DNA of 37,514 nucleotides from Actinomycetes bacterium (lineage in GTDB: Bacteria; Actinomycetota; Acidimicrobiia; Acidimicrobiales; RAAP-2). Positions 6,029 to 17,106 of the stretch are shown in pieces. The stretch lies in NCBI GenBank assembly GCA_021781335.1, contig JAJXXA010000055.1:1-37514 (forward strand), read 5' to 3'. The translations under genes and the position numbers were made by a program. Within the stretch, counting starts at the first letter, position 1; each line of letters opens with the position of its first letter. Under the pieces are notes generated by a model, which was not told the DNA's origin, searched no databases, and was given only the letters and a program-made list of their open reading frames with translations.

Positions 6029-7445
6029 GGGAGCGGGGCATGACGGCATCCTTTGCGCCGCTGACGCCACGTGGCCGGCGTACGGGCCTGTGGCGTATCA
6101 GAAGTTGCGTGATGGCGCCGGTGAGCAGTGTCGCCACTGCGGCCACCAAGAATGAGATCAACGACGCCGACATCCATGGCTGGTCGTGGAAGTGCACGAG
6201 ACTCGCGATACGCGACCACATCGTCACCCACCACGAGATATAGCCAGGATTGATGAACTGGTAGACAACGAACCCGCACGCCCACGGGATAAGCATCGTG
6301 GAACGCCGCGAATTACCCGAGAGGCTCCAATTCCCTCGCGCGAGTACAAAGAAATCAATGATGAACACCGCCGACATCGGCACGAATACCGAACCCAAGA
6401 GGACGAGGAAGTTCTCGTAATCGGCGATATTGATCAAGAGTGCGAGGATGGTCGCAAGCAACGAGATAACGACCGCCAGTACTCGCCGATCCCACAGGGG
6501 ACGAAGGTTCTGCACCGAGACCACCGTCGAGTACACGTCGGCGAATGATTGATCGAGTTCACGCGTGGCAAGGAGGGCAAAGCACAACGAACCGAGTGGG
6601 ACGGCGATGAAGGCACCGTAGATGTCGGAGGGATTCTTTGCCACGGTGACCAGCGCTATGAGGCCGATGAGATAGCAGAGGACCTGGGTCACGCTGTATC
6701 CAATGAACGCGCCGAAGAAGGCTGTTTGTGCGGAACGCGAGTGTCGTGTGTAGTCCGCCGCCAGCGGGGCAAACGACACCGCAACCGCGACGACGGTGTC
6801 GGTCGCGGCCCAGTAGCCCGACCACGTGCCCCGAGTGAAGGCTGGCAGGTGGTGGCTCAGAAGTTCGACGCTGAGATAGACGAGCACCACGAGAACTACT
6901 GGTGTCGCCACACGACGAAGTATTCGAATCGCACCCAAGGGACGAAGCGTGAGCAGTCCCGTGATGATTCCCGCGATGACTATATATACCCAGCGCGCGA
7001 GACCCGGTTGCACCGTGTGCGCCGCAGTCGCGATCGTCACGAGCTCGAAGATCCCCCACCCGAGCAGTTGGATCACATTCATCACGGTTGGCACGTACGA
7101 CAATCGTCTACCAAAGAGCCCTCGCAAGAGCACCATCGCGGGCGCACCTGTTTGTGCACCCGCGATGCCCGAGAGAGCGACGACGAGCGTGCCCACGAGC
7201 GTGCCCACGACGATGGCGCTGACGCTCGCCACGAGGGAGAGTTCGCGGGTACCCGCGCCGCCAGGCTGCAGGACGAATATGGCTCCGGTGAAGCCCAGCA
7301 GGCTCACGCCCAAATTTCCCCATAAGCCGAACTGGTCAAAGAATCCAAGCGCCTGGGGCACTGGTTCGTCGAGGGTCAGCGGCACTTCTGAATGCTTGTC
7401 ACCCGCGATGACACTGAATGAATGTGACTCTGACGCACTGGTCAT
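6021..7445 (-). CDS. cytX: NCS1 family permease, CytX-like, probably thiamine-precursor uptake
   Basis: A 474-residue, about 12-segment secondary transporter of the nucleobase:cation symporter-1 family. FFDQFGLWGNLGVSLLGF near residues 35-52 and SFAPLAADYTRHSR near the middle match the conserved substrate and cation-site regions of NCS1 proteins. Its leader holds a TPP riboswitch. NCS1 permeases under TPP control are known as CytX and are thought to import hydroxymethylpyrimidine or related thiamine pieces. ATG 7445 is set by the GGAGAG at the 3' edge of the riboswitch, so ligand binding can hide the ribosome site. The downstream APH-fold kinase overlaps by 8 bases. The symbol reflects regulation plus family; cytosine or purine transport is the alternative. 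Confidence 0.85.
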   Translation of the reverse strand: MTSASESHSFSVIAGDKHSEVPLTLDEPVPQALGFFDQFGLWGNLGVSLLGFTGAIFVLQPGGAGTRELSLVASVSAIVVGTLVGTLVVALSGIAGAQTGAPAMVLLRGLFGRRLSYVPTVMNVIQLLGWGIFELVTIATAAHTVQPGLARWVYIVIAGIITGLLTLRPLGAIRILRRVATPVVLVVLVYLSVELLSHHLPAFTRGTWSGYWAATDTVVAVAVSFAPLAADYTRHSRSAQTAFFGAFIGYSVTQVLCYLIGLIALVTVAKNPSDIYGAFIAVPLGSLCFALLATRELDQSFADVYSTVVSVQNLRPLWDRRVLAVVISLLATILALLINIADYENFLVLLGSVFVPMSAVFIIDFFVLARGNWSLSGNSRRSTMLIPWACGFVVYQFINPGYISWWVTMWSRIASLVHFHDQPWMSASLISFLVAAVATLLTGAITQLLIRHRPVRRPRGVSGAKDAVMPRSHD

Positions 7446-7457
7446 GACCTTCTCTCC

Positions 7458-7557
7458 TTACGCCGGCATTACCCGGACAAGTTCAACGGTCGGTGACGCG
7501 TCGGCCACTGCTGGCCAGCCACCCTCTCAGCCCGGTACGTCCGAGCTCCCGTAGTAA
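7458..7557 (-). promoter_or_regulatory. TPP (thiamine pyrophosphate) riboswitch
   Basis: On the minus strand this leader holds the THI-box landmarks in order: CGGGCTGAGAGGG (the pyrimidine-sensing CTGAGAGG at 7530-7523), a variable arm TGGCTGGCCAGCAGTGGCC, then ACCGTTGAACTTG (7490-7478) and CCGGGTAATGCCGGCG (7476-7461), close to the TGAACCTGATC..GG.TAATGCC.GCG consensus. TTAC at 7557-7554 can pair with GTAA at 7461-7458 to close P1. The ribosome site GGAG begins at the next base, which suggests translational control: TPP binding closes P1 and shields GGAG. There is no T-run after a hairpin that would argue for a terminator mechanism. Confidence 0.93.
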
Positions 7558-7613
7558 ATCAAGTGCAAGGTACCACATTGGACATCGACACCGGCAGAAA
7601 AGATTTCGGTGGC

Positions 7614-11276: not shown

Positions 11277-12131
11277 CTAGCGATAGCCCGCGAAGAGGTC
11301 CTCAACGACGCCACTGAGATGACGAGGATTCGTGACGCGAACGAACCACTCTCTTCCCATCACTTGGCGGAATTGGTCGCGGTCCATCTTCATCCAGAAC
11401 GAGCCGCTCATCTGGGACGCGTGCGCTGCCAGTGCGTCGTACTTGGCGTCGCTCACGCTGCTCACGTCGATCACCGCGGTGATCAACTCGTCGGCGGTGC
11501 CCAGATCGACCTCTTCTTCACTGGCCGACTCGGGCTCGCGGACAATTCCCTTGGCCTCGTCCGCGGCGCGTTGTTCACGCTCCTCCTCGGCCCAGCGCTC
11601 ACGGTACATGGCCATGACCGAATTGGGAATCGCGTTGTAGTACAACGTCGGTTCGTAGTCAATGAGTTCGAATGCGGCCAAGGTGATGCGATTGGCCTGA
11701 ATGTGATCGGGGTGGCCATAAAAGCCGAACTCGTTGTAGGTCATAACGACTTGGGGGCGTTCTTCTCGAAGCACCTCAGCTAATCGTTGTGCAGCCTCGT
11801 CGACGGGCGTTGACCAGAAGGACTCCGGATTGTCGTTCTGGGGCCACCCACTCATGCCCGAGTCTCGATACCCGAGTCGCACCAAGCGACTGATACCGAG
11901 CACGTCCACTGACGTATTCAACTCCTTGGCGCGAATCTTCGCGACCTCATCACCATCGTGCTCAGAGGTGCCAGGCTTGGCTCCATCGAGGGCGTCGCCG
12001 TACTCACCATTGGTGCACGTGACCAGAATCGTGCGTACGCCCTGGTTCGCCAACAGTCGAAAGACGCCGCCCGTTGAGCTGGCTTCGTCGTCGGGGTGCG
12101 CGTGCACCGCGAGAAAAGTCAGTTGTTCCAT
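11277..12131 (-). CDS. mca: Mycothiol S-conjugate amidase-like PIG-L/LmbE hydrolase
   Basis: A 284-residue zinc hydrolase of the PIG-L family. HAHPDDE at 10-16 supplies zinc ligands H12 and D15 and catalytic D14; GHPDH at 139-143 supplies the third ligand H143. RDSGMSGW near 89-96 is shared with Mca and MshB. In actinobacteria, Mca cleaves mycothiol S-conjugates to a mercapturic acid plus GlcN-inositol, detoxifying electrophiles. MshB, the close paralogue, deacetylates GlcNAc-inositol in mycothiol synthesis. The insert of about 25 charged residues near 170-195 is unlike either. Its ATG directly follows the TAG of the upstream paralogue, with GGAGGA just before, so the two are coupled. Confidence 0.82.
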   Translation of the reverse strand: MEQLTFLAVHAHPDDEASSTGGVFRLLANQGVRTILVTCTNGEYGDALDGAKPGTSEHDGDEVAKIRAKELNTSVDVLGISRLVRLGYRDSGMSGWPQNDNPESFWSTPVDEAAQRLAEVLREERPQVVMTYNEFGFYGHPDHIQANRITLAAFELIDYEPTLYYNAIPNSVMAMYRERWAEEEREQRAADEAKGIVREPESASEEEVDLGTADELITAVIDVSSVSDAKYDALAAHASQMSGSFWMKMDRDQFRQVMGREWFVRVTNPRHLSGVVEDLFAGYR

Positions 12132-12941
12132 CTACAGTCCTCCGAACAGGTCAGTGTCATCTTCATTCGTGCTGTGGCGACTCCACGCACGCTGGTAGTA
12201 CTCGATTCCGAATAACAGAGTAAAGAGTCTCGGGTCCATCGTGACCAAGTCGAGATTGTCTATCTGGGATGCGTGCGCTGCAATCGCCCTTTGCTTTTGG
12301 GCAGCGAACGGCTTCACGTCCATCACGGTCGCCACCGACTCGTCGGGGGTGTCAGGGACCGCGTCGAGTATCCACGCCGGAAGTGAGAGTCCCTGGGCAC
12401 TCGCACCCGCCCGGAAGTCGGCGAGCACGCCACGAGGTATGACCGGGTAATACAGTCGCTGCACGGCATCGGCCAATTCGATCGCTCGACGCGTCACCAC
12501 ATTGGCTCGGATGTGGTCGGGGTGACCATAGAAGCCATTCTCGTCGTAGGTGACGACGACCGCTGCGTTCGTCTCGTCGATGACCGTTGCGATAAGTCTC
12601 GCGGCACTCTCAAGGTCGGCGTTCATGAACGCGCCCGGATCGAGGTTTTGGGCCCAGCCAGCCATCCCCGAATCACGGTAACCGAGGTTCAGGCACCGGG
12701 TGAAACCCACGAGCTTCGCCGAGCGCAGCAGTTCGCCCGCGCGCGTGGACGCGGTGGCGTCACTGTCGTGGTCGCGATGATTACCAGGTCGCGCGTCGGC
12801 GTCAAAGCCCAGTCGGCCATCCGTGCACGTGATCAGCACCACGTTGAAACCGAGCGCGCCGTAGTGCGCGGAGATGCCAGCGGTGAACAGGGCTTCGTCA
12901 TCGGGGTGTGCGTGCACACAAAGAAGGGTTGGTGGCGTCAT
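12132..12941 (-). CDS. Second Mca/MshB-like PIG-L hydrolase
   Basis: A 269-residue paralogue of the following gene, with HAHPDDE near the N-terminus, RDSGMAGW in the middle and YDENGFYGHPDHIRAN holding the last zinc ligand. The final residues (ETDLF-like DDTDLFGGL) match the C-terminal end of both Mca and MshB. YDENG-YGHPDH is found in both families, so I cannot say whether this one is the deacetylase (MshB) and the next the amidase (Mca), or both are amidases. It is first in the two-gene operon, ten bases from the NRAMP gene stop, all on the minus strand. The ATG is set by the conserved N-terminal VHAHPDDE. Confidence 0.8.
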   Translation of the reverse strand: MTPPTLLCVHAHPDDEALFTAGISAHYGALGFNVVLITCTDGRLGFDADARPGNHRDHDSDATASTRAGELLRSAKLVGFTRCLNLGYRDSGMAGWAQNLDPGAFMNADLESAARLIATVIDETNAAVVVTYDENGFYGHPDHIRANVVTRRAIELADAVQRLYYPVIPRGVLADFRAGASAQGLSLPAWILDAVPDTPDESVATVMDVKPFAAQKQRAIAAHASQIDNLDLVTMDPRLFTLLFGIEYYQRAWSRHSTNEDDTDLFGGL

Positions 12942-12950
12942 TTGTCGAGA

Positions 12951-14531
12951 CTACGAGACCGAGAGTTGAATGATGCGAACCACCAGTAGCACTCCCGCAA
13001 TCAGCAAATACGCGCTTTGTGCACGCATCAAGATCGTGCGCGACTTCGATCGGTGCATGGGAGCGAGCAAGGTGAGCCGCGGCGTCCTCCAGTCACGCCT
13101 GTCTATGTCGTAGACGATCGGGGGGGCGATTCTTCGAAGTCCGATCGGAAGGCCGATGACGAGTCCAACAAACCCGATGACCGACAATGTCTCGAGCAAC
13201 GCAACTACGTTCACCGAGGTGAACAACGTCGAGATCATGAGGGTGAATGAGAGGACCACGAGAGCGGTCACGATGACCACCGCCACCACGTTCAGCCACT
13301 TGGAATTGACCCACGGACCCATGACCTCGCGGTCGTTGCACAAAAGAAGGACGATGATTGTCGTACTCGGTAACATCAACCCGCAGATCGCCTGAACCGC
13401 CAGGGTGATGAGACCCAACGGCGCACCGGGGATGAGCGACACCGTGCCCGCCAGGGCCAAGAGGAGGAGAAATCCACCATAGAAGCCCTTCGCATCGAGA
13501 AAGCGCGCGTTGAGGCCCTGGTGCGAACTCGACAGGTCGCCAATCGCGTAGGAGCTCGCCAGGGTGACCGCGGCGGCGCCGATCACCGACGCGTTCAGCA
13601 GCAGGATTGCGAAAAGCGCTCCTGAGCCGTGGCCGACGTAGTGACCCAGTCCCCTCGCAACCCCCAAGGCGTTCGTGAACGAATTGGTGCCGCCGTGTGG
13701 CGAGAGTCCGGCGGCGATCGCGGCCACGACCGCGCCCGCACTTATCACCACGATGAAGGACCCGAGGATCGTATCGACGCGCTCATAGTTGAGCCAGCGC
13801 GGTGTGATCTTCTTGTCAACGATGTTCGATTCTTGAAAGAAGAGTTGCCACGGCGCCACAGTGGTACCGATGATCGAGATGATCAAGAGCACCGAACTCG
13901 AGGTGGCTCCCCCTCGAATCCCCGGGACCAGCGCGTGATGCACGACCGTCGTCAAGTGTGGCTTGGCCGCCAGGACAAGCGGCACCAAGAACAAGTTGAC
14001 CGCGACGAACAACATCATGAACCGTTCCCAACGCCGAAAGGATCCCGACGCGGTAACGAGAAACAACATGATCACCGCAACCGGCACTGACGCGTAGGGG
14101 GTCACGCCGAAATACTCCATGGCGAGCGAGATCCCTATGAACTCGGTGATGATGATCATGAAATTGAGAAAGAGAATGGAGAAGATCGATAGATTTCCCC
14201 AATAGCGTCCAAATCGCTCTCGGATGAGACGCCCGTGACCCACGCCGGTCACCGCGCCGAGACGCGCGACCATCTCTTGGATCACGATGAGAACCGGTAT
14301 CAAGAGCGGAAGCGTCCACAAAAGCGAGTAGCCAAAATTCTGCCCCGCCTGTGCGTACGTGGAAAAACCGCCCGCATCATTGTCGCCCACCATGACAATG
14401 AGTCCGGGACCGATGATTGTGATCAACGTCAAGAAGCGTGCGCGAAGGCCGCGACGGTCTCCGACGTCATGCGCTTTGATGGTTCCAAAGGCCCCACGGA
14501 TCTGTTGTTCTTTTGCCTCTTCGCTCTGCAC
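12951..14531 (-). CDS. NRAMP-family divalent metal transporter with non-canonical metal site
   Basis: A 526-residue membrane protein with about 11 segments of the NRAMP (SLC11) family. The first segment carries GPGLIVMVGDNDAGG (metal-site region, D50-N51-D52) where manganese/iron NRAMPs have DPGN. The sixth has TTVAPWQLFF (225-232) in place of the MPH-N motif, so the sulphur ligand from Met is absent. This pattern resembles the NRAMP-related magnesium transporters (NRMT) described by structure work. GTG 14531 is chosen because AAAGGAGG lies six bases before it; an upstream TTG has none. It follows a soluble MgtE_N-CBS gene on the same strand, which supports Mg2+ or Mn2+ as the ion. Ion identity is inference. 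Confidence 0.85.
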   Translation of the reverse strand: MQSEEAKEQQIRGAFGTIKAHDVGDRRGLRARFLTLITIIGPGLIVMVGDNDAGGFSTYAQAGQNFGYSLLWTLPLLIPVLIVIQEMVARLGAVTGVGHGRLIRERFGRYWGNLSIFSILFLNFMIIITEFIGISLAMEYFGVTPYASVPVAVIMLFLVTASGSFRRWERFMMLFVAVNLFLVPLVLAAKPHLTTVVHHALVPGIRGGATSSSVLLIISIIGTTVAPWQLFFQESNIVDKKITPRWLNYERVDTILGSFIVVISAGAVVAAIAAGLSPHGGTNSFTNALGVARGLGHYVGHGSGALFAILLLNASVIGAAAVTLASSYAIGDLSSSHQGLNARFLDAKGFYGGFLLLLALAGTVSLIPGAPLGLITLAVQAICGLMLPSTTIIVLLLCNDREVMGPWVNSKWLNVVAVVIVTALVVLSFTLMISTLFTSVNVVALLETLSVIGFVGLVIGLPIGLRRIAPPIVYDIDRRDWRTPRLTLLAPMHRSKSRTILMRAQSAYLLIAGVLLVVRIIQLSVS

Positions 14532-14716
14532 GCCCCTCCTCCTTTCGTCTCGTTGTGGTCGTTCAGCAAACAACCACGCGGAGACCGGAGGCGGGCTAGA
14601 AGCCTGTCCTTAGGGCACAGCGGGGTTGTGTCGTGTCATGGGTAGCCGTACGGCTGGTACTAGGGGGTTTCAGAAAGACCCCCTTAGAACGGGACGTAGC
14701 ACGAAGCGCGGCACGA
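14532..14716 (-). promoter_or_regulatory. Structured leader between the MgtE_N-CBS gene and the NRAMP gene
   Basis: The 185-base gap holds three symmetrical elements. A hairpin at 14662-14684 has arms AGGGGGTTT / AAAGACCCCCT with one bulged G. A perfect 12-bp palindrome AGCCGTACGGCT lies at 14644-14655. A 9-bp stem with a 5-nt loop lies at 14555-14577, ending 12 bases before the ribosome site of the NRAMP gene. None has a T-run. The layout suggests a regulatory RNA leader or operator. It lacks the landmark sequences of the M-box, yybP-ykoY and NiCo riboswitches. Confidence 0.4.
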
Positions 14717-15976
14717 TTATTCCTCCACCGCGCTCATGCCAAACTCGCGGCGCCACCCCTGGGGTAGCAATTCCTCGAGCAGGTCGTCGACGGTGATGAC
14801 ACCGATCATCTTCTTGTTCTCTTCGTCGAGCACGGGCAAGACCGTGAGATTGAAGTCGCTCATCTTGCGAGCGACACGGTGCAGGTCCCAATGGGGGTGC
14901 ACGTAAGTAAGGCGTGTTCGAGCGACACTGAGCGCCAACTCGCTTTCGCGAGCGCGAACCAGTGGAGCGATTGCCGCCGCACCGATGGGCTGGCCCTCCT
15001 CATCGAGCACGAACACCGCGTGCACCGACTCTGCGGGCACCAGTGAGGTGCGGATGGCTTCGAGCGCCTCGGCCGCGGTCGCGGTCGCGGGCACCGTCAC
15101 AAAGTCTGTGTTCATCAACCCACCTGCCGTGTCGGCGTTGTAGCTGAGGAGTTGGCGAACCTTGGCTTGCTGTTCACTCGGGAGATTCTCGAGAATCGGC
15201 AAGCGTCGATCCTGGTCAATCTCGTTGATCAAATCTGCCGCATTGTCCGGTTCCATACGTGACAAGAGACGCGCCGCTTCTTTGTCCGAGCGCGACTCGA
15301 GGAATTCGAGCTGATGGGTCGTGTCGAGTTCCTCAAAGACGTCGGCCTCGAGTTCTCGGTCCAACCCCACCGCTTCTATGATCTCCTCGCCCTCTTCGTG
15401 ACTGGCTTGCTCCACCAGGTCAGCAATTTGCGCGGGGTGCAACTTGGCGAGTTTGCGGTATGGGATGCGAAGGCGTGCCGAAGGGACGTGCGCTACGAAT
15501 GGCTCAATGGACGCGAAGTCCACGATGGCGTCGACTTTGACCCGCTGGCCAATCTTCTGGCCGAGCATTCTGCGAAAGAACGAGCGCCGACCAGGGTCGA
15601 CACCGACAACCTCCCATCGACCATCGATCTGGGCGATCTCGATCTCATTGGCAATGATGAGCCGTCCTCGAACCAGGTTGATGAGATGACGCGCGAGCAG
15701 GTCCTCAGCGAGCAGCAATTCACCCGGTCGTCGCTCGAATCGGCGCAGATCCACCCTTCGCCCTTCAAAGGTCATGCGACCCTGGCTGAGCCCACCGATC
15801 TTTCGAATGGGGACGAAGAGGTTGCGACCTTCGATGCGAATCACCGCGCCCACGATCGGCGGGTGCGCGTCGTCGCCGAGTCGCGCGACCAGATCCTGGA
15901 CGCGACCAATCCTGTCACCGTCAGAATCGAAGATTGGACGGCGCAGGAATGTTGAAAGGTGAAGAATTTCGGTCAT
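14717..15976 (-). CDS. Soluble PRC-barrel, MgtE N-domain and CBS-pair protein
   Basis: A 419-residue cytoplasmic protein. Residues 1-130 look like a PRC-barrel region (FDSDGDRIGRVQDLVARLG and VVGVDPGRR). Residues about 165-265 match the MgtE N-terminal domain (LHPAQIADLVEQ, MEPDNAADLINEI). Residues 270-400 are two CBS motifs beginning with SYNADTAGGLMNTDFVTV, nearly identical in style to MgtE, and ending ITVDDLLEELLPQ. MgtE uses this module to sense Mg2+ and gate its channel; here the channel domain is missing and no membrane segment exists. It is followed 185 bases later by the NRAMP gene, so it probably controls that transporter. Start ATG 15976 is the first one fitting the conserved domain. 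Confidence 0.85.
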   Translation of the reverse strand: MTEILHLSTFLRRPIFDSDGDRIGRVQDLVARLGDDAHPPIVGAVIRIEGRNLFVPIRKIGGLSQGRMTFEGRRVDLRRFERRPGELLLAEDLLARHLINLVRGRLIIANEIEIAQIDGRWEVVGVDPGRRSFFRRMLGQKIGQRVKVDAIVDFASIEPFVAHVPSARLRIPYRKLAKLHPAQIADLVEQASHEEGEEIIEAVGLDRELEADVFEELDTTHQLEFLESRSDKEAARLLSRMEPDNAADLINEIDQDRRLPILENLPSEQQAKVRQLLSYNADTAGGLMNTDFVTVPATATAAEALEAIRTSLVPAESVHAVFVLDEEGQPIGAAAIAPLVRARESELALSVARTRLTYVHPHWDLHRVARKMSDFNLTVLPVLDEENKKMIGVITVDDLLEELLPQGWRREFGMSAVEE

Positions 15977-16077
15977 AGCAAGCCCTGTAAGCGAACCAAG
16001 GCTACCCCCTTCGGGCCTCAGCGACCAGCCCGGCACAGTGAACTCTTGGCAACAACTCTTGCGGGTGAGTTCCTACG

Positions 16078-17106
16078 TCAGTTGGTGGCGGGACGAAAGT
16101 TCTCGAGAACGTCTGCGACGTACTCGACATCGTCGTCATTGATCCCCATGTGGGTAACGAACCGCACTCGTCGTGGGGCCACCGTGCCACCGTGTACTCC
16201 AAGTGCCGACAGTTCTTCGACGATCTGACGGGCCTGGGGATGGTCAAACGCAACGATGTTGGTGCGACACGATCCAGGGTCGTAGCGCGATTCGGGAAAG
16301 GCAGCGGCGAACAATTCAGCCAGTCGGCGCGCCCTGCGATGATCCTCACCCAATCGCTCGATCATGGTTTCAAGCGCCACGAGACCGGCCGCCGCGAGAA
16401 ACCCGGCCTGGCGCATGGCCCCTCCCAGGCGCTTTCTTTCAATACGCGCTCGTTGCATCAGTTCACTCGATCCAGCGAGCAACGAACCCACGGGGGCGCA
16501 GAGTCCCTTTGAAAGGCACGCCATCACGGTCGTCGAGGTATCGGCGTACTCCTTCAGCGACACACCTGTTGCGACCGACGCATTGAAAAGACGTGCACCA
16601 TCAAGGTGCAACGGTCGATCACCAATCGCGCCCGCAAGGGCCCGCAGATCATTGAGTTCCCACGGCGTCCCACCCGAGGGCATGTGCGTATTCTCAACGC
16701 TGAGCATTGCCACGTGAGGTTGGTGATCGGCTTCGGCGTCGATGATCTCGAGTACGTCGCTCAGCGCGAGCGCGCCCGTTGCGTCGTCGACGAGCGCGAA
16801 CTGTACAGAGGAGTTGCGTGCGGAGGCACCCATCTCAAAACTGACAATGTGTTGTGACCGGCCGGCGACGATGACATCACCAGGTTGGGTGAGCACCCGC
16901 ACCGCGATCTGATTGGCCATGACACCTGAAGGTACGAACAGCGCCGAGTCCTTACCCATCATCTCGGCAAATCGAGCCTCAAGCGCATCTACCGTAGGGT
17001 CTTCGCCGTAGCCGTCGTCCCCCACGTGTGCCGACGCCATGGCGTCACGCATCTGCTGGGTGGGTTGGGTGACGGTGTCACTTCGAAGGTCTACGTAGCG
17101 AGTCAT
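16078..17106 (-). CDS. ltaE: Low-specificity L-threonine aldolase
   Basis: A 342-residue fold-type I PLP enzyme that cleaves L-threonine or allo-threonine to glycine and acetaldehyde. [13 protein letters not shown] at the N-terminus is the family signature and YGEDPTV follows. D169 in LHLDGAR contacts the PLP ring nitrogen and K200 in [12 protein letters not shown] is the Schiff-base lysine. Length is normal (about 340). It starts 36 bases from the divergent thioesterase; on the minus strand a TAGCCT at 17118-17113 sits just before the ATG, suggesting a leaderless transcript. The MgtE_N-CBS gene lies about 100 bases downstream on the same strand. Confidence 0.94.

Follow-up and report, generated by a model that had tools for sequence, protein, structure and literature searches.

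A pair of adjacent minus-strand genes, one encoding an NRAMP-related carrier of the NRMT branch (12951..14531) and the other a soluble relative of the MgtE channel (14717..15976), was analysed in a window of 37,514 nucleotides (the whole stretch of DNA studied) from an uncultured soil-type actinobacterium, whose genome, 88.8% complete, is denoted G000. We consider it probable, on balance, that the two genes form a Mg2+ importer unit in which a pore-less descendant of MgtE, hereafter the sensor, exerts feedback on the carrier. The pairing and the idea of feedback or gating have been in print since 2014, when Shin et al., in the portions of their article available (PMC4072509), reported that most nrmT genes have an MgtE-fragment gene as neighbour and proposed feedback regulation. 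New here are a pore-loss series among the sensors, the membrane protein DUF1003 as a further partner, the co-occurrence of sensor and carrier when unlinked and a map of the Mg2+ ligand positions.

The gene pair and its linkage

Two samples were used, one of 346 actinobacterial genomes drawn across the phylum, with matches to the sensor query in 212 and to the carrier query in 174, and one of 37 genomes of the genus. The sensor-NRAMP pairing read from the window in the preliminary description, with both minus-strand genes side by side, recurs on a single contig in 35 of the 37 genus genomes and is therefore not due to chance; in both exceptions (G002, G004) the contig ends at the sensor match. 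Across the phylum, linkage was counted among the listed matches (149 sensors, 119 NRMT-class carriers with G000 excluded, and 30 canonical-type NRAMP proteins), and the link counts are lower bounds; the NRMT class was taken down to E 2.2e-47, a cut-off chosen by eye at a gap in the scores. At least 84 of the 119 NRMT-class matches have a listed sensor no more than 1.5 kb away, in 83 cases on the same strand and preceding them, and such a neighbour is found for none of the 30 listed canonical-type, lower-scoring NRAMP matches. Linkage is thus conserved well outside G000, and the first of the refuting outcomes named in the preliminary description, a lack of such linkage in other genomes, did not occur. 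The fetched loci add further links in G191 and G094 (order reversed), G381 (convergent) and G386, and other arrangements are seen in G136 (convergent) and G044 (two divergent pairs). This adjacency, surviving changes of order and strand, is more than co-transcription alone explains and points to a common task of sensor and carrier. Sorted by neighbour (NRMT, DUF1003 or neither, the weakest DUF1003-profile rows being excluded and 111 DUF1003 matches typed), the 149 listed sensors divide into 84, 50 and 15, and each of these last 15 comes from a genome with an NRMT-class match elsewhere (they include G354:C118, which stops close to the end of its contig).

The carrier gene (12951..14531, minus strand) encodes 526 residues. 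Its open reading frame opens at TTG 14573, and the start was placed at GTG 14531 on account of the relatives and of a ribosome-binding site, AAAGGAGG (14538..14545, minus strand; same or near sequence in relatives), located 6 nt upstream. The protein matches the Pfam Nramp family (E 5.1e-72), its closest solved relative is EleNRMT from Eggerthella lenta (7qia; E 3.7e-65, 223.7 bits, with the runner-up at 91.1 bits) and its score with the curated MntH model NF001923, 106.8 bits, falls far short of the cut-off of 430. An NRAMP protein deprived of the DPGN and MPH metal motifs and resembling the NRAMP-related Mg transporters had been described beforehand, and closer inspection bears this out: the two sites read NDAGG and GTTVAPW, the canonical DxxN and A/CxxM ion site is absent, and DAGG in helix 1 (14367..14378, minus strand) and TTVA in helix 6 (13854..13865, minus strand) correspond to the DxxG-TxxA/T signature of NRMTs given in the available text of Ramanadane et al. 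2022 (PMC8806188). This signature is present in 203 of 207 NRAMP rows longer than 350 residues from the fetched loci (window included; many of the loci overlap), as DGTA in 184, DGTT in 17 and DGTS in 2. At least four NRMT-class matches (loci L211, L213, L214 and L215) have neither DAGG nor DSGG; in the fetched stretches, L211, L214 and L215 (genomes G097, G176 and G340) hold DPAG and TTLA NRAMP-related proteins with no sensor gene and perhaps constitute a separate branch. According to the same article as far as available (PMC8806188), EleNRMT accepts Mg2+ and Mn2+ but not Ca2+ and works without coupling to protons; it has the ion site in common with the window carrier and differs in length, with a chain of 438 residues in the Protein Data Bank (PDB) entry. 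The signature and the best solved relative support placing the carrier in the NRMT (Mg2+) branch, and it is predicted to move Mg2+.

The sensor gene (14717..15976, minus strand) encodes a soluble protein of 419 residues, with a PRC-type beta head, an MgtE_N superhelix and a CBS pair. It runs from ATG 15976 to a stop at 14717; a longer alternative frame opens at 16036, and ATG 15976 is preferred as the probable true start because several relatives whose matches extend farther upstream contain in-frame stops (e.g. G022, G003, G008, G035, G014, G009, G012). Pfam places an MgtE_N domain (E 3e-21; 15134..15442, minus strand), which carries D212, D244 and D248 aligned to E59, D91 and D95 of Thermus thermophilus MgtE (TtMgtE), and two CBS domains (E 2.5e-19; 14768..15127, minus strand), which carry N376, D398 and E401 aligned to D226, D247 and D250. 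There is no match to the five-helix pore domain PF01769 and no transmembrane stretch, the best 19-residue Kyte-Doolittle window reaching 1.11 against a threshold of 1.6. The AlphaFold2 model, built with 45 aligned relatives, has a mean pLDDT of 88.2 and a pTM of 0.78, and its ten top structural matches consist solely of MgtE or its cytosolic domain (8gpv, Z 21.9, 2.4 Å over 251 residues; Mg2+-bound 2yvy, Z 20.8, 2.3 Å over 242), in a fold search that barely tests the N-terminal head. The earlier view of the MgtE_N and CBS module as a soluble protein therefore stands. The PRC-barrel region attributed to it stands in part: residues 1–130 (15587..15976, minus strand) are mostly beta in the model (strands 4–56 and 97–127), and PRC exceeds the Pfam cut-off in some relatives (L204, 1.1e-9; L178, 2.6e-6; L198, 7e-6), but the match in the window protein itself is weak (E 0.0055, short of the cut-off) and relatives L217 and L117 give no Pfam match to PRC. 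Within the genus the long matches are 72–98% identical to the window protein, and D28, A185, E216, M241, G392 and D398 are invariant in 45 diverse members.

Putative Mg2+ switch, pore loss and genomic context

The Mg2+ sites of the cytosolic switch of TtMgtE, as named in the accessible part of PMC5882242, were mapped onto the window sensor by alignment. Mg4 corresponds to D244 and D398, Mg6 to D248 and Mg7 to D212 (Glu in TtMgtE). Aspartate occupies these positions in 31 (D244), 33 (D398), 31 (D248) and 32 (D212) of the 33 soluble NRMT-linked relatives, a set that excludes L133/L212 (one locus, with a C-terminal hydrophobic stretch); L244, a repeat of L185, was dropped from the ligand alignment. 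The sensor thus has the N domain, the CBS pair and the acidic Mg4, Mg6 and Mg7 positions in common with the channel (2yvx/2zy9), from which it differs by the missing pore domain, by arginine at Mg2/Mg3 and by the additional PRC-type head. The Mg2/Mg3 residues, E258 and D259 of TtMgtE, are kept in all 35 of the four-to-five-helix forms described below, and the E258 position holds Arg or Lys in 29 of the 33 soluble NRMT-linked sensors and Arg in all 23 DUF1003-linked ones. This pattern fits a switch still able to close in response to Mg2+ although it has no attached pore left to operate, and the window sensor may bind Mg2+.

Three forms of NRMT-linked sensor could be distinguished: the soluble form of the window, a form with one C-terminal hydrophobic helix (L200, L201, L263, L264, L212) and a form with four or five such helices (L198, L199, L202, L203, L216, L247–L262). 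Four or five helices are also present in the unlinked sensors L228–L241. When only the membrane part was compared by hhalign with 17 true MgtE proteins (L267, a short open reading frame, and L285 and L286, without a usable one, being left out of the tail alignment), the tails proved homologous to MgtE, with probabilities of 97.1 for the linked and 99.8 for the unlinked group. The aspartate of the pore (aligned to D432 of TtMgtE) is found in 17/17 true MgtE proteins, in 0/21 linked and in 0/14 unlinked tails (0/35). One of the five-helix sensors, that of L198, accompanies a carrier closely related to EleNRMT (E 8.1e-143 to 7qia), the partner of the window carrier having instead a soluble end. 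A quick tree was built from the MgtE_N-CBS part; in it the canonical MgtE rows do not fall to one side of any branch, and four one-helix forms are nested within five-helix forms. The sensors would accordingly be MgtE relatives that have lost the pore and, in places, the membrane part while keeping the switch, the order and direction of these losses being presumed.

The genomes offer a Mg2+ context for the pair. M-box riboswitches were detected in 10 of 30 chosen NRMT genomes, and in each of them a sensor or NRMT match follows one such riboswitch at a distance of at most ~0.6 kb. CorA and MgtE channels are both absent from 31 of 110 genomes with NRMT, compared with 11 of 236 without it (Fisher p 2.6e-9, uncorrected for relatedness), and CorA occurs in 5 of 19 NRMT genomes of the class. 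In G000, at its 88.8% completeness, there is no CorA, no MgtE channel and no P-type ATPase above the MgtA cut-off. A role of NRMT as the sole entry for Mg2+ in this genome is not claimed, given that incompleteness and the presence of a CNNM/CorC protein, which was found in all 16 genomes tested, G000 included. Furthermore, in G125 and G336 (97–98% complete) matches to the sensor, to NRMT, to CorA and to the MgtE channel are all missing and no Mg2+ importer is evident, so the absence of known importers alone points to no given protein.

DUF1003 as a possible second partner, the intergenic element and flanking genes

The 50 listed sensors (of 149) that adjoin DUF1003 (PF06210) have it downstream on the same strand in 50/50 cases. 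Among 23 fetched loci of this type, 15 have an open reading frame with predicted membrane helices starting at most 13 nt from the last base of the sensor gene, 14 of them overlapping it, and the three checked by Pfam (L178, L188, L197) are DUF1003. In the quick tree the DUF1003-linked sensors form one clade (SH-aLRT 100) beside that of the window (90). These pairs thus resemble the window pair in that a neighbouring clade of sensors stands directly upstream of a membrane protein, but differ in the partner, which is small, has one or two predicted membrane helices and belongs by Pfam to DUF1003 and not to Nramp. The DUF1003-type gene follows the sensor gene immediately in L178–L197, L243 and L245, and a further conserved gene lies downstream in many of these loci; in L178, where Pfam was run, it encodes an Mrp/NBP35-type ATPase. 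The structure model of DUF1003, with a pTM of 0.35, is of low confidence.

Eleven sampled genomes contain no NRMT, CorA or MgtE channel. A sensor-DUF1003 pair is present in five of them (G169, G178, G287, G321, G322) and is not among the matches listed for the other six; of four such sensor-DUF1003 genomes tested, one (G287) has an MgtA-type pump above the cut-off. No paper treating DUF1003 together with MgtE was found in a search to which the subscription literature was mostly closed. We tentatively suggest, as the less likely side of the question, that the PRC-MgtE_N-CBS protein, derived from an MgtE that lost its pore, works as a Mg2+ gating subunit that can be detached and serves both NRMT and DUF1003, in which case DUF1003 would be Mg2+-regulated and perhaps itself a Mg2+ transporter or channel.

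Between the two genes of the window lies a conserved element, GTTCTAAGGGGGTCTTTCTGAAACCCCCTAGTACC (14656..14690, minus strand). With up to one mismatch allowed, its core, TGAAACCNCCNAGTACC, is found between the two genes in 33 of the 37 genus genomes, the others being G002, G004 (contig ends), G021, G010 (two mismatches), and 13 core columns are invariant across 39 aligned gaps (the motif-free gaps L128 and L131 excluded). The exact form TCTGAAACCCCCNAGTACC is present in 100 of 292 loci, many of them overlapping, and once in the window. Elsewhere in the genus genomes the core gives, at one mismatch, 8 matches in 7 genomes against none for the reversed control, and outside the genus 3 against 2 control matches (24 genomes), counts on which a repeat or a regulon may be considered. 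The element has no match in Rfam. A riboswitch was considered and set aside: RNAalifold yields 4 pairs only, and clear covariation is lacking in a two-hairpin structure drawn by hand, whose score was reached in 373 of 500 shuffles and whose two-sided pair changes were reached in 34 of 500. Conservation is asymmetric and strongest in one half of an inverted repeat. Our guess is that it is bound by a protein or serves as a signal for processing, which would allow unequal expression of the two genes.

On the same strand, a gene of the beta-eliminating lyase family (16078–17106) lies just upstream of the sensor gene and may be on a common transcript with it. Two genes for PIG-L family deacetylases are placed end to end (11277–12941, minus strand) directly downstream of the carrier. 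A thiamine pyrophosphate (TPP) riboswitch is found at 7437–7562 (minus strand; 54.8 bits, gathering threshold 54.3).

Proposed feedback on the carrier and alternative explanations

In the proposed mechanism the NRMT carrier would import Mg2+, and probably also Mn2+, and the sensor, which most likely descends from an MgtE channel via pore-less membrane-bearing forms, would keep the Mg2+ switch of the N domain and CBS pair. As cytosolic Mg2+ rises the switch would close as it does in MgtE, and the closed sensor would act on the carrier at the membrane, so that import is slowed. Contact between the two proteins, gating and the inhibitory sign of the effect are the parts that we infer. The arrangement is the same kind of gene pair as the NrmT/MgtE-fragment pairs of Clostridium acetobutylicum (Ca_c0685) and Acidobacterium capsulatum (Acp2976-2977). 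The window pair has for its own the PRC-type head (heads go unmentioned in the part of the 2014 text available), a C-terminal extension of the carrier and the conserved intergenic element; it has no M-box, and the same holds for A. capsulatum.

Several observations weigh against feedback on a Mg2+ importer. In the available portions of the 2014 study (PMC4072509), the A. capsulatum NrmT, whose gene neighbours an MgtE fragment, fully rescued a Mn2+ defect and rescued the Mg2+ defect at low-millimolar Mg2+ only, addition of the A. capsulatum fragment brought no better rescue, and the C. acetobutylicum NrmTs function without an MgtE fragment. In the window sensor the Mg5 site is changed (N376 for D226 and E401 for D250 of TtMgtE), two arginines stand at E258-D259 (Mg2/Mg3), and the residues of the MgtE ATP site, taken from the accessible text of PMC5529423, are absent. 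Among the genomes of the listing, 46 have a sensor and no NRMT-class match, and G115, G176 and G340 have an NRMT-class match and no sensor match, the proteins of G176 and G340 reading DPAG and not DAGG. No M-box was detected in the window or in G000, nor in 19 other of the 30 genomes tested, and CorA or MgtE is present in 79 of the 110 NRMT genomes. As to the 2014 co-expression, better rescue is not what one would expect a feedback inhibitor to bring about.

The Mn2+ rescue by the A. capsulatum carrier with its like neighbour, together with the Mg2+ response confined to millimolar concentrations, would also suit a unit for uptake of Mn2+ or of divalent metals in general, with a sensor that answers Mn2+ or some other signal. 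The transport of Mn2+ by EleNRMT besides Mg2+ and the absence from the window genome of a second match to the carrier's NRAMP query point the same way. We regard this as unlikely, since an M-box precedes the unit in a third of the NRMT genomes tested (10/30), CorA and MgtE are more often missing where NRMT is present and several of the MgtE-type Mg2+ ligand positions are kept. Nor do we think it likely that the sensor never touches the carrier and instead monitors cytosolic Mg2+ in general, with expression, assembly or some other partner as its target, the two genes belonging merely to the same regulon. PRC barrels are found in RNA-processing factors, a third of the listed sensors (50/149) stand beside DUF1003 and no carrier, and the failure of the added fragment to improve rescue (PMC4072509, as far as available) would be understood; yet many NRMT-linked relatives have MgtE-derived membrane tails that place them at the membrane, the DUF1003 proteins have predicted membrane helices as well, and adjacency persists through changes of order and strand. 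A functionless vestige of the ancestral channel, carried along in the operon, would account for the lost pore aspartate in the membrane-bearing relatives and for the loss of some ligands in the soluble ones, but is very improbable in view of the identity kept within the genus, the six residues invariant in diverse members and the co-occurrence with NRMT even when the genes are unlinked. Feedback of the sensor on the carrier thus remains the explanation that we prefer: the series of pore-less sensors, the link to DUF1003, the presence of sensor and carrier in the same genomes even when apart and the mapped ligands do not prove gating, but in our view make it more likely than the 2014 data alone.

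If the sensor does gate the carrier, the regulatory half of a channel would have been re-used on an unrelated carrier, an unusual change of effector for a gating module. The pairing with DUF1003 would, if true, suggest a first function for that family. Together with it, the series of pore-less sensors turns the question left from 2014, what the MgtE fragment does, into a concrete, testable one.

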